The translations under genes were made by a program, and so were the position numbers. Below, piece after piece: positions 21,809 through 28,981 of a DNA stretch of 64,000 nt. The stretch lies in contig CALUKE010000004.1 of NCBI GenBank assembly GCA_944321165.1, positions 186,001 to 250,000 on the forward strand, given 5' to 3'. The notes beneath the pieces were generated by a model. The model searched no databases. It saw nothing but the letters and a program-made list of their open reading frames with translations, and was not told the origin of the DNA. The DNA is from an uncultured Odoribacter sp. GTDB lineage: Bacteria > Bacteroidota > Bacteroidia > Bacteroidales > Marinifilaceae. Position 1 is the first letter of the stretch. The number at the start of each line of letters is the position of its first letter.

Positions 21809-22279
21809 TCACGACCATTTTCTGTAGGGACACCGGGCCAGACTGGCATTGTAATAGCGCCGATCACCGGTCACTTCCGGTCCTAACCACTCGGGGTGTT
21901 CGAAAGACTCATCCCCGCTTTTCAGTTCGACCTCCGCCACCACCAGGCCCTCGTTTTCGCCCAGAAACTCATCCACCTCGAAGAGATGAGTGCCGACCGG
22001 CACCAGGTGGCGAATCTTATCGATCACCCCCGGTTCGCACAGTGCCAGCAATTCCCGGGCTTCGCCGGCAGGGATCTCCTTTTCCCATTCATAGCGACTC
22101 AGCCCGGAAACATCGCTCTTTCCCTTGATCGTCAGATAGCCCTTCTCTCCCTTCAGGCGCACCCGTACCGTCCGTTCAGGCACCGAGGAAAGATATCCCT
22201 GTGTGATCCGCACAGACTGCCGGACCTGTGACTGAAAGGCGCCCCGTACCAAAAACTTTCTTTCAATTTCCTGTGCCAT
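21809..22279 (-). CDS. CYTH-domain protein (triphosphate tunnel metalloenzyme family)
   Basis: A 156-residue protein that is one CYTH domain. The defining N-terminal ExExK motif is present as 'EIERKFLV' (residues 4-11), followed by 'ITQGYLSS', 'TVRVRLKGEKGYLTIKGKS', 'YEWEKEIP' and 'FEVDEFLGENEGLVVAEVELKS', the alternating charged strands that line the tunnel. Family members hydrolyse tripolyphosphate or nucleoside triphosphates; a few are adenylate cyclases. This size is typical of the stand-alone bacterial group. It begins 6 bp after the stop of the 2231-residue aminotransferase/kinase-like gene, so the two are almost certainly cotranscribed and probably act on related phosphorylated compounds. 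Confidence 0.9.
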   Translation of the reverse strand: MAQEIERKFLVRGAFQSQVRQSVRITQGYLSSVPERTVRVRLKGEKGYLTIKGKSDVSGLSRYEWEKEIPAGEARELLALCEPGVIDKIRHLVPVGTHLFEVDEFLGENEGLVVAEVELKSGDESFEHPEWLGPEVTGDRRYYNASLARCPYRKWS

Positions 22280-22285
22280 CGTTTT

Positions 22286-25200
22286 TTATTTTTTCTTTCC
22301 GCGCACCGCGGTTTTCTTTTCCTTTTCCACCTCCGCTACCGGATTCCGTTCTGCCTCCAGGAATCTCACCACCGCATACTTCGCCGCAGCAATTGTTTCC
22401 CGGTTCACCTTCTCGATCACACTGCCGCGGGCCACATCCTCCGTCGTCACATACCCCTCCATCAGCAGCAGCTGCACGATCATATTGTTGACATTCGTCT
22501 CCTCGCTATATCCTTCGGCTACATACAGCTTCTCCATATGCTCGGCAAACTCCCGGGCAAATTCGGGGTAGTTCGGCAGACTCATCAGCTCTTCGAACGT
22601 CTCGCTGAAACTGCTCAACTCGATATTCAGGTTCGGATTCACCAGCAGCGGACTGAATTCCTGCTTCGGATCTACCGGCCGGAAATTCACCAGATTGCCC
22701 ATATCCACCTTTTTCGTAATATCGTCCATACGCCGGTAATCCGCCTTCTTCATGTTCTCCAGCTGATAGATAAAGAAATTATACCGCCACAGTTCCGAAC
22801 TGTTCATCTCTCCTTTGAAAATATGGCGATACTTCTCGTTCAACAGCCGTTTCACCCGAATCTTCCCTTCGTTGATCTCCGGCCGGTTGATCCGTACCTC
22901 CTGGATCATCCGTTTCAGTTCCATCGCCGCCTTCTGCGGTCCGGTGATTTCCCGTCCCTTCTTGCCGATCTCCGTCGACAGCATGCCGCACTGGATATTC
23001 CGGGCTTTTCCCCGGCCGTCGGCCCCGCCCCGCATCACCCGCACCAGGTTCATCACCGATTCCAGCTGTCCCTCCTCGGCAACAAAAGGCTGTCCGCCGG
23101 GGGTACTGGCCAGCGAGTCGAAGATGGCGCTGAACATCCGGCGGTCGATCCGCATCTCCGTCGTTTCCCCTTCTCCATATGCCACCGTCGCGATGAAACG
23201 GTTCTGAATCATATCGAACGCCACCGTCCGGATCGTATACACCACTCCGTCCCGTTTGAACTGCTTGCCGTCGAAAATCAGATTCACCACCTCCGTCAGG
23301 TTGATCTTGTCCAGCAGCTTATACGAAGAGGCCAGGTAATACTGCTTCTCGCTCTCCACATAATCCCAGTCCAGGATATCGTCCAGGTAATTCCCGTGCC
23401 GGGCCATCACCTCCACGATGTGCTTATCCGCCGTATAGCGTTTCAACGTCCGCTGGAAATTCGGTCCGTCCTGACTGGTCGCCTTCTCCTTCCGTTCGCC
23501 GTGAGCATCCATATACAGCAAAAAATTCTCCGGATTATCCACCCGCGTAATTCCGGCCTCCTCCTTCGAATAATTGCCGGCACTCAGCATGATATCGATC
23601 TTGTACGGCATCGTAATGTCGCACATGCCGCTCACCGTACTCCGTGAGTTCAGGTCCTCCACATTGCTGTCGGCGCTGCTCTCGAACAGGTACTTATAAT
23701 ATTTGATATAATCCGGGTCGAAATCCGTCGTTCGCGAAAAATCGCCCACTTCCGTCCCGATGCCGTACAGATTGCCCTCGGCATCCTGGAATTCGTGGAA
23801 CATATCCCCCGCAATCAGTTTCACGGAGCGCACCCCCTCCAGGTTATTCCTCAGCCATTTCAGGATAAAGGCCGCGATCATCTCTGACTTTCCAACCCCG
23901 CTGTCTCCGTTGATTTCCACGACAAAAATGCTGCCGTCGTTTTCCTCCACGGCAAACAGCGAGCCGTGCCGCGGATTGCCTCCGATCTCCTTGATCTTCT
24001 CGTTGATCACCGTCAGCCGGGGTTTCTTCACATCCCCGAAATAATCCACCTTCTGTTTCAACGGCGTCACAATCGTCTTGATATTCCCGTTCGGTCCCGG
24101 AATATCGAAATAACCGATCTGCGGGAAAGAAATCAACTTCTCCGGAGCCCCCAGAAAACTGATCACATCCGGTACGAAACGGGTGATATCCTCCAGCGAG
24201 ATATCCTCCGTATAATTCAGGCGGTAATTATCCGTCAGGTACTTCAGATAGCCTTTCTGGAAAATCACCAGTTCCTTCACCATCCCGTGTTTCACCACCT
24301 TGCAGCGGTAATCGTCCGAATCCATATTACCGATAAAACGGGCCAGGCGGTGGATAAAAAATGCCGAATCCGGCCGCAGGTCCAGCAGCTTCAGATAATC
24401 ATTCGGTCCTGCCTCCTCCGTCAGTTCCTTCGGCCGGGTCGTCAGGCGGTCCACCTTGTGGAAGGGATACTCCCGTTTCTTCGCATCCGTCACGATGCGG
24501 GTATGCTCCTGCACCGGCTGTTCCGACGAGATCACCCCGCACTTCTGCATCAGCTCATTGATCCATTTCATCCGACCGCCGTCGAAGGTCTCCAGCACCT
24601 TGTTCTCCATCTCGAATCCCTTGTAAATAGAGATGCCGTGTTGCACCATCTCGTTCACACTCGAATTCTGTTTCATAAACGCCGTTTCCACCAGCCGCAC
24701 CAGGGTATGCGTATAGCGCTTGTAATAATCCGTCCCCTTCGTGCGCTTGATCATACTGATATAAAACAGCACCACTTTCCGGCTCACCCGGTGGATCTCC
24801 TTCTCCGCCACCTTGATATCCCGGCGGCGCATGATATAGTCATTCACATCCTTCAGTTGCGAAGGCATGATCTCCGTAATAAACTCCTCGGTAAACATCT
24901 TCACCTCCCCGTCCTCGCAGGCCTCGATCCGGTCGCTGAAATACTTCAGCTTGGCCGACACCAGACGGTAAAACGAGTGGTCGTTATGCAGCAGATAGAG
25001 GAACAGAATCTGGTCCGTCACCGCCATATGCTCCCGGTGGATTCCCGCCGCAATCGAATCCATGATATAGCCCATGCAGCGTTGTGCCAGCAGAGTCTCC
25101 CGGAACTCCGGCAGCGCCCGCAGGCGGTTGATAAACTCATCCACCCAGATCTGCAGGTTCAGATCGCTCAGCCGGATGCCGATGATCTCCTCGAACATCT

Positions 25201-28200
25201 CCCCGGCCACCCGCACGATCTCCTTCCTGCTGGGTTCCAGACTTTCCTTCTCAAACGGCAAGTTGAAATGCAGCAAGATCTCGCGGATATACTTCTTGAG
25301 GATCACATTGATTCCTTCCAGTTTCGACTTGTCCAGTTCGGGATGGCCCGTCGCGTCGATCGCCAGAATCTTCACCTTGCTGTCCGAAAACAGCAGGTGT
25401 TCCATCTCGATCAGGATCTCCCGCATCACATTCTTCTCCATCGGATCATCCAACACATTGTAATTCGGCTGGAACGTCTTCTTATTCGTGATATACTTCA
25501 AGATCACCGCCTTGCTGTACTTCGAGCTCACCGTATTGAAATCCAGGTCCGCAATCGCCGGTATCTGCTTATAGATCTGTGCCAGCAGATTCTCATACAC
25601 CTTGGTAAAGGCCGAGCTGCGGATAAACTCAAACACATCCCGGCACGAACCGATCTTGTCGCCGTGCAGTTCGATCACCGAATTCACCGAGCGGTCGATG
25701 GTCGTAATACTCACCCCGCTGCGTTCCGGAGAGGCATGATACAGCGTCCGGATATCCCGGATCTGCAAAGACGGAGCCTTATCCTTCCGGTACTTCGCCG
25801 ACAGCGGATAATCCGCGATCACCTCATCGATCAGCTCCTGCACCTTCGCACAGGCAAACAGCTCCTCCAGAATCACCTGGCTCTCCACCTCCTTATAGGC
25901 CGGATCCTGCCGTTTCGCCGCAAAGCGGGTCCAGTACTTCACAAAAATCGTAAACCCGTCCTCCAGTTCATACTTAAACACCTGCTTGCTCTCCTCCGTA
26001 TCCGCCAGGAAACCGCCGATCGCAAAGCGCACCAGTCCCGTCGGGTAGGGTACTGCCGCAATTCCCCGGTGCAACGCCAGATACTGGCAGAAACAGAGCA
26101 GATCGGCATACGAGCATCCCTCTCCCACCCGGAAATTAAACAGATAAGAGCCGTCCGAGGGCAGGCAGGTCACCTCCGTCCCCTCAAACCGCGCCAACAC
26201 CCGGGCCGCCACCTCCTTCGCCCAACTCATCCGCTGCAGCGACTCCGTACGGAAATTCTTATTCACCCGGAAGCGGTTCAGGTTCTCCACCAACCGTTTC
26301 TGATAATAGACAAAAAACGGTTCCTGGTGATACTTAAAATCATCCGGCAGCGCCAGAATATCCAGTTTATCCAGAGCCACCAGTTCATCCAGCAGAAACA
26401 GGTAGAGGGGACTGCCCTCAAAACCGGCCGTCTTGTGCAGCTGCCGGTTCGCCACGCTGTTGGCATTCGACTGCTCGGTCCGTCCGATCTGGTCATTGAT
26501 AAAGCGCACCAGTGTCTCCTTGATCTTAAATCGGGAGGCATTCTTCGGCAACTCGCTTTCCAGGGTATCCTTGATTTTCTTCGCCACCTGGGCAATCTCC
26601 AGCAGGTTATTCAACATCAGCAGCGAATTGTTATTGCCGTGCGAGCTGGCGTTGTGCTGACGGACAAACTCCGCCACCGCAGCTGCCTGCGGTGTCACGG
26701 CCAGGGCCCCCAAGCGGTCGCCGGTGGCCGACAGATTCTTGGTCGTCGACAGCGACGACACCGCCCGGATATTCGACTGGGCGTTGATATTATTGATGAT
26801 ATAACGTGAAATCGTCCGCCATTTCGGCATTTGCTTATCCGTCACTTTCACACTGTCCGCATACGCCTCGTCCAGGAAAAGGGTGATCTTACAGGTATTC
26901 ATCAGCTTCAGGAAAGCATTCAGCACCTCCGTATTGAAATCCGTATACCCCGTCGGATTGTTCGGATCATTGATCAGGATCGTCGTATTCTCGCAGAACA
27001 GATCCCACAGACTACCGCTGTCATCGAACAGCGACAGCGTCGACTTGATGCGCAACAGTTTGTCCGTCAAGCGCTCATACGCTAACCGTCCGTCCGGCAG
27101 GTTCTCGATCTCTATATCGAACGGATTGATATCGAAGGCATCGTCCGGCAGCAGGTCCTTATACTCCCAGGCCTGCATTGCATTGTATATAATATACGGT
27201 TTCGGTCTTCCGTTCGGGTTAAACAGCAGATCCCGGATAATCATCTGCACCGAATCGGACACCGACGTCTGCTCCAGATTACCCAGGGCCGACAGGAACT
27301 CCTTCACCACATTCTGGTCCGCCTCGGGCAGCGCCCGGTACTTCTCCCGGATGCCCAGGTCATTCAGGAAATTGTCATACCGTCCCTTGTTGTTCGCATC
27401 GTTATCCACCTTCGTGATATAGGCCTGATATTTCTCCAGAAACAGGTTGATGCCGAAATTCTTGTGGAAATGATTTTTCAGCGTCCGTTCATAATTACTG
27501 GGGATAATACCCAAAATCAGCTCACAGGCCTTATACACCTTCTCTTCCAGCCGGTGCAACGGTTTCTGCAACAGATAACTCCCAAAAGTGCGGATCTGGT
27601 TCCGTCCTCCCCCCTCCAGCACACTCAGCACCTGTATCTGCGGGCTGTCGGAATAAAAATACTGCCGGATGCGGCTTTCGAACTCATCGATCAGCTCGCG
27701 GGTCTGCACCTGCCGTTTCTCCTCCTTGTGGCAATTCTCCAGAAAATAGATAAAATCCCGCAGTTTCTCCAGCGAATACTTATCCTGCACGATCTTGCGC
27801 GAAAACATATCCAGTTTGAACACATTCAGGCGTTTCACGGCATCCTCCGTCGTTCCGATCTGTTCCGTCAGGATCTGCCGGATTTCCGCCTCATACTCCC
27901 GGATCTGCGCCTCGATCTTCTCCCGGAACTCCACTAAGAAAGAAGGGTTCACATTCTCCAGGATCAGCCGCAGATTCAGCTGCGTATTCGCCGGCGACCC
28001 CAGTTTCTTCGTATGCACCTTGTTCAATGTATTGATAATGCCGTTGTGGAAACAGAACACCAACGACGTATTCGAACTGCGCGATTCCCGCGAATCGTCC
28101 ACGATCACCAGACGGGTCAGCAGCGGGAACCACTTCTCTCCGGAAAAGGGGTTCACCCGCATGTGACGGGCCTTCACCACAAACACCGAAGTCGTATCCA

Positions 28201-28981
28201 CGCTCATCCGTTCGAACAGCTCCTCTGCCGACGGATTCTCCATCACCTGCACACTGTTTCGGCCAAACACATCACCCCGGATCAGGCTCACCGCCTTATC
28301 CGCATTTCCCGACACCACCGTCGTGATCATCCCGTTCAGTCCCTTGAAATTCACGGCCCAACGCATCCGGTTCAGAAAGTCCGCCTTCTCCGCTCCCGTC
28401 GTGTAGTGGGTACTCTGGCTGATCATCTGCTCAAGCGTATCCATCAGGTAATTCCAGTGGGCCTCATTCAGATCGCCCGTCACCCCAATCACATCGCGAT
28501 ACTTCCGCAGGTCGCGCACCTGGCCACCCAGCTGCACCTGCGAAATAAACTCGATGTGACTGCTGCGCACCGGGGGTATCCCCACCGAAAAATCATGTGT
28601 ATCCTTGATATTCTTCAGGAGAATCTTCTCATCCGGATTCACCGTTTCCGTATCCAGGCACTCATTGATCTTCCTGACAAACTCTGCCCGCCGTCCGCTC
28701 AGTTCGAATGCCTTCGAATCATTATGCGGACAAAGCATCAGCGACACATCCGTATAGCCCGGAATATCCTCCCGGAACTTCAGCAGATAGCGGTTGATCT
28801 CCGACTGCTGTGCCGTCGGATCATCCGGTTCCTCAAAACAAAGCTTTACAAAACTGGTCAGGTTGTCATAAATATGCCGCGGCAGAAAAATCTCTGCCCG
28901 TTCCCCCAACGATTCATAAAGATTCAATAATTGCCGGGCCTCATTGCTCAGAAACGCCCTCGGTTCTCCTTTGATTTTCAT
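22286..28981 (-). CDS. Giant fusion protein: fold-type I PLP aminotransferase plus HPrK/PEPCK-like P-loop domain
   Basis: A 2231-residue protein without signal peptide or membrane segment. Residues 1-590 are of unknown, largely helical character. Residues about 590-1000 are a class I/II aminotransferase-like domain: 'NDPNNPTG' (671-678), 'LFLDEAYADS' (701-710, with D704 and Y707), PLP lysine K748 in 'LSTTKNLSATGDRLG', phosphate-binding R756 and the substrate carboxylate arginine R985 in 'TGLVRFAIGG'. All key residues are kept, so it should bind PLP. Residues 1000-1660 are helical and unassigned. Residues about 1670-1900 hold a Walker A 'GDSGVGKSE' (1692-1700), whose form recalls HPr kinase, followed by 'LIAGDMFHEF' and 'IDIMLSAGNY', which recall the PEPCK/HPrK superfamily. 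The C terminus ends in a Lys-rich tail. The substrate and reaction are unknown. It is followed by a CYTH gene and preceded by an attenuator-like leader. Confidence 0.88.
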   Translation of the reverse strand: MKIKGEPRAFLSNEARQLLNLYESLGERAEIFLPRHIYDNLTSFVKLCFEEPDDPTAQQSEINRYLLKFREDIPGYTDVSLMLCPHNDSKAFELSGRRAEFVRKINECLDTETVNPDEKILLKNIKDTHDFSVGIPPVRSSHIEFISQVQLGGQVRDLRKYRDVIGVTGDLNEAHWNYLMDTLEQMISQSTHYTTGAEKADFLNRMRWAVNFKGLNGMITTVVSGNADKAVSLIRGDVFGRNSVQVMENPSAEELFERMSVDTTSVFVVKARHMRVNPFSGEKWFPLLTRLVIVDDSRESRSSNTSLVFCFHNGIINTLNKVHTKKLGSPANTQLNLRLILENVNPSFLVEFREKIEAQIREYEAEIRQILTEQIGTTEDAVKRLNVFKLDMFSRKIVQDKYSLEKLRDFIYFLENCHKEEKRQVQTRELIDEFESRIRQYFYSDSPQIQVLSVLEGGGRNQIRTFGSYLLQKPLHRLEEKVYKACELILGIIPSNYERTLKNHFHKNFGINLFLEKYQAYITKVDNDANNKGRYDNFLNDLGIREKYRALPEADQNVVKEFLSALGNLEQTSVSDSVQMIIRDLLFNPNGRPKPYIIYNAMQAWEYKDLLPDDAFDINPFDIEIENLPDGRLAYERLTDKLLRIKSTLSLFDDSGSLWDLFCENTTILINDPNNPTGYTDFNTEVLNAFLKLMNTCKITLFLDEAYADSVKVTDKQMPKWRTISRYIINNINAQSNIRAVSSLSTTKNLSATGDRLGALAVTPQAAAVAEFVRQHNASSHGNNNSLLMLNNLLEIAQVAKKIKDTLESELPKNASRFKIKETLVRFINDQIGRTEQSNANSVANRQLHKTAGFEGSPLYLFLLDELVALDKLDILALPDDFKYHQEPFFVYYQKRLVENLNRFRVNKNFRTESLQRMSWAKEVAARVLARFEGTEVTCLPSDGSYLFNFRVGEGCSYADLLCFCQYLALHRGIAAVPYPTGLVRFAIGGFLADTEESKQVFKYELEDGFTIFVKYWTRFAAKRQDPAYKEVESQVILEELFACAKVQELIDEVIADYPLSAKYRKDKAPSLQIRDIRTLYHASPERSGVSITTIDRSVNSVIELHGDKIGSCRDVFEFIRSSAFTKVYENLLAQIYKQIPAIADLDFNTVSSKYSKAVILKYITNKKTFQPNYNVLDDPMEKNVMREILIEMEHLLFSDSKVKILAIDATGHPELDKSKLEGINVILKKYIREILLHFNLPFEKESLEPSRKEIVRVAGEMFEEIIGIRLSDLNLQIWVDEFINRLRALPEFRETLLAQRCMGYIMDSIAAGIHREHMAVTDQILFLYLLHNDHSFYRLVSAKLKYFSDRIEACEDGEVKMFTEEFITEIMPSQLKDVNDYIMRRRDIKVAEKEIHRVSRKVVLFYISMIKRTKGTDYYKRYTHTLVRLVETAFMKQNSSVNEMVQHGISIYKGFEMENKVLETFDGGRMKWINELMQKCGVISSEQPVQEHTRIVTDAKKREYPFHKVDRLTTRPKELTEEAGPNDYLKLLDLRPDSAFFIHRLARFIGNMDSDDYRCKVVKHGMVKELVIFQKGYLKYLTDNYRLNYTEDISLEDITRFVPDVISFLGAPEKLISFPQIGYFDIPGPNGNIKTIVTPLKQKVDYFGDVKKPRLTVINEKIKEIGGNPRHGSLFAVEENDGSIFVVEINGDSGVGKSEMIAAFILKWLRNNLEGVRSVKLIAGDMFHEFQDAEGNLYGIGTEVGDFSRTTDFDPDYIKYYKYLFESSADSNVEDLNSRSTVSGMCDITMPYKIDIMLSAGNYSKEEAGITRVDNPENFLLYMDAHGERKEKATSQDGPNFQRTLKRYTADKHIVEVMARHGNYLDDILDWDYVESEKQYYLASSYKLLDKINLTEVVNLIFDGKQFKRDGVVYTIRTVAFDMIQNRFIATVAYGEGETTEMRIDRRMFSAIFDSLASTPGGQPFVAEEGQLESVMNLVRVMRGGADGRGKARNIQCGMLSTEIGKKGREITGPQKAAMELKRMIQEVRINRPEINEGKIRVKRLLNEKYRHIFKGEMNSSELWRYNFFIYQLENMKKADYRRMDDITKKVDMGNLVNFRPVDPKQEFSPLLVNPNLNIELSSFSETFEELMSLPNYPEFAREFAEHMEKLYVAEGYSEETNVNNMIVQLLLMEGYVTTEDVARGSVIEKVNRETIAAAKYAVVRFLEAERNPVAEVEKEKKTAVRGKKK

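Follow-up and report, generated by a model that had tools for sequence, protein, structure and literature searches.

A conserved 2231-residue Odoribacter protein that joins a predicted fold-type I aminotransferase to a PEPCK-like module

Fold-type I aminotransferases (PF00155), among them AspAT, ACC synthase and KAT II, carry the residues NPxG, D, Y, K, R and R in a canonical order. Phosphoenolpyruvate (PEP) carboxykinase (PEPCK) occurs in ATP- and GTP-dependent forms (PF01293, PF00821); in PCK1 Mn is bound by Lys244 and Arg87 of the R-loop is essential (PMC7948413), and docking places oxaloacetate in contact with Arg87, Asn403, Arg405 and Tyr235 of PEPCK (PMC4631375). The window analysed here, 64,000 nucleotides of an uncultured Odoribacter sp. 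(GenBank GCA_944321165.1, contig CALUKE010000004.1, positions 186,001 to 250,000), encodes on its minus strand one protein that has an aminotransferase domain followed by a module resembling PEPCK. Both parts belong to known superfamilies; what is new is apparently their combination and the PEPCK-like subfamily, and the literature searched holds no description of such a fusion.

The open reading frame (ORF) starts with ATG and runs from 28981 to 22286 of the window with no internal stop, confirming the single uninterrupted frame reported in the initial annotation. Its 75 full-length relatives (about 2200–2320 residues, 46–92% identity) share a single common architecture, so the fusion is not a chance product. 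The ratio of non-synonymous to synonymous substitution rates is about 0.03 between the fusion and its two nearest relatives, and is similar (0.02–0.05) in every segment for which it could be computed. The architecture is real and well conserved. With the exception of the far C-terminus, the 75-protein alignment is most variable at residues 1251–1400, which separate the catalytic halves, as expected of a linker.

Profile and fold searches support a complete fold-type I aminotransferase, dependent on pyridoxal 5′-phosphate (PLP), at residues about 480–1025 (25907–27544; all features of the fusion lie on the minus strand). Pfam identifies PF00155 (Aminotran_1_2) at residues 665–798 (E = 2.6e-10, 40.5 bits, cut-off 19.7), and the same profile matches all eight members of alignment A1 (best E 3.7e-12, others up to 0.1). 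Searching PDB sequences with a 66-sequence profile retrieves the ACC synthase 1iax (E = 4e-5) and, in two stretches, the AspAT 1o4s (E = 0.005); the NCBIfam search of the fusion returns weak aminotransferase-type matches only. The AlphaFold2 (AF2) model of residues 1–1170 [predicted local distance difference test (pLDDT) 83, predicted template-modelling score (pTM) 0.83] finds many fold-type I aminotransferases in Foldseek, with 1vp4 the best (E = 3e-6), and identity to aminotransferase structures is about 10–14%.

The active-site set is complete. NPTG at 675–678 (26948–26959) contributes N675, D704-E-A-Y707 (26861–26872) the Asp and Tyr of the PLP ring, K748 (26738–26740) the expected Schiff-base lysine, R756 the phosphate arginine and R985 (26027–26029) the expected α-carboxylate arginine. 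All are at the positions first given for them; N675, P676, G678, D704, Y707, K748, R756 and R985 are invariant in the 75 sequences, and T677 is T in 47 and S in 26. The spacing of K748 and R756 is that of AspAT. Unlike the described enzymes, the domain sits in a 2231-residue chain behind an extra 450-residue N-terminal region and carries about 110 residues more than usual between K748 and R985. Residues 496–522, which contain the nearly fully invariant NHFHKNFGINLFLEKY, are poorly predicted and may, by analogy with such dimers, form an arm reaching the partner subunit.

The fold matches include structures of aspartate β-decarboxylase and ACC synthase, and with the ~110-residue insertion they could point to β-decarboxylation, elimination or cyclisation instead of transamination. 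We regard this as highly improbable; the fold ranking is unspecific, ordinary aminotransferases scoring equally, and the NCBIfam search does not return TIGR03801, the aspartate decarboxylase model. Membership of the aspartate β-decarboxylase family was rejected on that same NCBIfam result, and no protein in 60 genomes of the class passed the cut-off when the family was searched for there.

The second module spans residues about 1290–2030 in its widest sense (22892–25114), with a core at 1541–1838 and approximate boundaries. Every one of the best 50 PDB fold matches of the AF2 model of residues 1045–2215 is a PEPCK, aligned over part of its length with E between 3e-4 and 4e-3, and HPr kinase (HPrK) is not among these 50. 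Aligned by hhalign with 18 Bacteroidota PEPCKs, residues 1600–1960 place YFGDVKK on YGGEMKK, H1672 on the metal His and the D1726 region on the kinase-2 acids, and the P-loops pair; the score is 44.1, and 60 column-permuted controls give 27.5 ± 3.7 (maximum 35.5). The motif Y.G..KK...H...P-loop is present in 75/75 fusions, 18/18 PEPCKs and all eight members of a family of standalone PEPCK-like proteins (below), is found in 0/24 HPrK and arises by chance in 24 of 200,000 shuffles of the upstream stretch.

The initial annotation had called this an HPrK/PEPCK-like P-loop domain. A separate module of that clan is indeed present, but it resembles PEPCK more than HPrK. HPr kinase/phosphorylase (PF07475) shares with the fusion the P-loop clan, a His ahead of the P-loop and the GxSGxGKSE form of the loop itself, and over the P-loop hhalign scores slightly higher for HPrK than for PEPCK (51.0 versus 44.1). 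That match, however, spans only about 48 columns, permuted controls reach 50.9, similarity is confined to the P-loop neighbourhood, and HPrK lacks the Y.G..KK motif and any place in the top 50 folds. The HPr kinase profile gives at best E = 0.02, in two of eight members, and PF07475 is unmatched by the window's fusion. We consider it very unlikely that the aminotransferase is joined to an HPrK-like kinase acting on a hydroxyl group, be it in a protein or in a compound made from an amino acid. The predicted fold and the motif support a PEPCK-like rather than an HPrK-like module, so that an oxaloacetate-like acid undergoing carboxykinase-type chemistry is a better candidate reaction than phosphorylation of an amino-acid hydroxyl; of the first proposal, an enzyme that builds and phosphorylates an amino-acid-derived compound, the general multifunctional idea is retained.

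Most catalytic residues of PEPCK have equivalents in the module; PEPCK positions are given in rat numbering. Y1647-F-G-D-V-K1652-K1653 (24023–24043) corresponds to Tyr235, Lys243 and Lys244 by hhalign, motif count and conservation, H1672 (23966–23968) to the metal ligand His264, and D1726 (23804–23806) to the metal ligand Asp311. The equivalents of the Mn-binding Lys, His and Asp (K1653, H1672, D1726) are thus all in place, and all are invariant, H1672 and D1726 in 75/75; Y1647 and K1652 do not vary either. The P-loop GDSGVGKSE lies at 1692–1700 (23882–23908), where it was originally located; G1692, D1693, S1694, G1695, G1697, K1698, S1699 and E1700 are invariant in 75/75, and position 1696 is V in 71 and A in four. 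N1778-S-R1780 (23642–23650) would match the substrate residues Asn403 and Arg405, an alignment obtained only through the standalone family; N1778 is invariant in the 67-row alignment A3 and R1780 in 75/75, so that together with Y1647 the substrate residues Tyr235, Asn403 and Arg405 all have counterparts. The fusion differs from PEPCK in its much larger chain, in its P-loop (GLSGTGKTT in PEPCK), in a diverged lid (HGERKEKATSQ for GYTAK.AGTE), in a Gly at Asp310 and in falling below all Pfam cut-offs. Pfam recovers PF00155 in the first half and no significant family over the P-loop region, where PF01293 and PF00821 are unmatched; structure prediction supports both an aminotransferase fold and a PEPCK fold.

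Standalone PEPCK-like proteins of 576–587 residues occur in seven Bacteroidales genomes [loci L009:6447–8177 (minus strand), L010:5329–7062 (plus strand), L239, L240, L242, L244, L245 and L246]. By hhalign the family aligns with the fusion core 1541–1838 across 279 columns (E = 2e-23) and more weakly along 1285–2033; it is homologous to the core and probably to 1290–2030, lacks the aminotransferase and has DDM where the fusion has GDM. Neither Pfam nor NCBIfam holds a model that it matches above the cut-off (PEPCK profiles reach 11–17 bits), DUF4914 (PF16260) overlaps weakly in the standalone proteins only (E = 0.07–0.2), and a PDB profile search with the standalone alignment A5 returns repeat-protein noise only. 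A PF01293 pckA is missing from 5/7 of the standalone-bearing genomes, those five being 98–100% complete, versus 4/60 relatives, a difference (Fisher p = 2e-4) that is indicative only, as the test ignores kinship: three of the five pckA-less genomes belong to a single family, and the two sets overlap by one of the 60. In three genomes (G054, G611, G782) the standalone gene adjoins the PEP carboxylase gene ppc, a genomic context that points to the PEP/oxaloacetate node as the family's place; in G054, where ppc was named by eye, the standalone gene, ppc and an aroA-like gene, also named by eye, share one orientation.

We give an about even chance to a single chain in which transamination between aspartate and oxaloacetate is coupled to a carboxykinase-type step between oxaloacetate and PEP. 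The aminotransferase would take the amino group off an amino acid, most likely aspartate, leaving a 2-oxo acid that is most likely oxaloacetate; the PEPCK-like module would decarboxylate and phosphorylate this oxo acid with a nucleoside triphosphate to PEP, a divalent metal being held by K1653, H1672 and D1726. The reverse direction, from PEP and CO2 to aspartate, would be equally possible, and the covalent linkage may pass unstable oxaloacetate on without release (channelling). More tentatively, and at somewhat less than an even chance, the protein is a single-chain amino acid-to-PEP enzyme. It would act as a transaminase on aspartate, or on an analogue such as cysteate, and hand the resulting oxo acid within the chain to a divergent carboxykinase site; it would also be the large representative of a PEPCK-like family in which the small proteins replace PEPCK in some Bacteroidales.

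Several observations weigh against a carboxykinase-type role. The model of the PEPCK part is modest (pLDDT 76, pTM 0.66), with 1746–1813 poorly predicted; Foldseek gives low TM-scores against PEPCK, about 0.25 of the target, since the alignment covers just a portion of the chain; and the PDB sequence-profile search gives no PEPCK match. G1725 (75/75) stands at the place of Asp310, so that the second kinase-2 acid (rat) is lost, and Arg87 is unplaced, the invariant R1495, R1503, R1545 and R1559 being candidates in an N-domain alignment that is unreliable. A survey of the homologues' neighbourhoods finds no pathway gene, nor any other gene, that recurs beside the fusion across families, recurrent clusters being few and mostly lineage-specific. 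The kinship behind the pckA count belongs here too. Ordinary pckA is present in 17/19 well-assembled fusion carriers checked; since the fusion mostly coexists with pckA, it is not simply its carriers' PEPCK and would have some additional role. Two fusion-bearing genomes, G599 (99% complete) and G606 (97%), have no PF01293 pckA match, and PEP carboxylase is absent from the genome to which the window belongs.

The Gly at Asp310, the changed lid and the unplaced Arg87 leave room for another substrate, for example sulfopyruvate, or for a sensing role. The same two-module enzyme could act on another β-carboxy- or β-sulfo-2-oxo acid, for instance taking cysteate via 3-sulfopyruvate to PEP and sulfite, or the reverse. 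PEPCK structures with bound β-sulfopyruvate exist, and the divergent lid, the lost Asp and the pckA of most carriers fit a changed substrate; against this, PEPCK's Tyr and Asn-x-Arg substrate residues are retained and the fusion shows no linkage to genes of sulfonate or any other pathway, and we consider it unlikely. A large regulator or scaffold, one or both sites binding ligands without turnover to sense amino-acid or PEP status, also seems rather improbable. G1725, the lack of a conserved operon and about 900 unassigned residues would suit such a protein, and PMC5320631 offers a precedent in MocR regulators, which it describes as using aminotransferase domains as sensors. The Schiff-base Lys, the metal-binding Lys, His and Asp and the Walker A Lys are nevertheless invariant in the 75 sequences, and Pfam searches recognize no DNA-binding or signalling domain.

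The ~900 residues outside any recognized family comprise 1–480, 1030–1290 and 2031–2231; the initial figure of about 1200 unassignable residues shrinks to these once the PEPCK-like module is recognized. Residues 1–450 (27632–28981) are predicted to be mostly helical with a small α/β core (strands 218–310; AF2 model pLDDT 83); they match no Pfam family above its cut-off, and PDB profile searches find nothing for them. The AF2 models show a helical linker at 1030–1290 (25112–25894), and that of 1045–2215 a C-terminal tail at 2031–2231 (22289–22891). Residues 120–340 were considered as a second, degenerate aminotransferase domain forming a pseudo-dimer, the order of motifs being suggestive, but this was dropped in view of hhalign E values of 0.3–0.5 and the missing Pfam and PDB profile matches.

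Downstream of the fusion by 6 bases, on the same strand, lies a CYTH gene (21809–22279), initially put forward as a clue to the substrate. It adjoins the fusion in only 2/82 surveyed loci, both Odoribacter (the window and Odoribacter sp. Z80, L036), and other Odoribacter loci are without it; a functional link was rejected on this count. Directly upstream is a transposase-like gene of the PD-(D/E)XK family (PF12784; 29317–30285), and polysaccharide and SusD/thioredoxin genes are the other window neighbours. RidA removes reactive by-products of PLP enzymes. A RidA-like gene is convergent with the fusion, 25–28 bases past its end, in four loci that form one clade in the tree (L053:13889–14266, L058:14454–14831, L086:6859–7236, L087:16695–17072), and lies near it in L070, L077 and L081.

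The fusion is matched in 11/60 relatives' genomes, O. laneus and the window's genus among them, in 3/395 genomes across the phylum, counting the window's own, and at some level in 35/344 genomes of the order. Among these 35, a single full-length copy is present in 16; another genome has a nearly complete copy that meets the edge of its contig, and a further one has the two halves on separate contigs. A scan of GTDB contigs yields 80 loci, hosted by Alistipes/Rikenellaceae, Odoribacter, Marinilabiliaceae, Ancylomarina and Flavobacteriia bins, with a few from Ignavibacteria, Chlorobiota and Calditrichaceae bins. Copies from Odoribacter, Rikenellaceae and Marinilabiliaceae each form a cluster in a quick tree (several long branches flagged), the Marinilabiliaceae cluster also holding a bin with the label Chlorobiota and another named no further than Bacteroidales; the gene therefore seems to be inherited mostly vertically inside families, with a patchy distribution from one family to the next. 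About 1.5 kb downstream of the fusion gene in G002, a short ORF (L011:14826–15032, G002:C1:3617825–3618031) is 71% identical to fusion residues 1452–1524 and may be what is left of a second copy.

If the proposed coupling of transamination to a carboxykinase-type step is correct, one covalent machine would join aspartate to the PEP–oxaloacetate node of central metabolism in Bacteroidota of the gut and the sea, Odoribacter and Alistipes among them, and the fusion would offer a direct case for testing oxaloacetate channelling. The unannotated PEPCK-like family may, in addition, explain genomes that apparently lack PEPCK.

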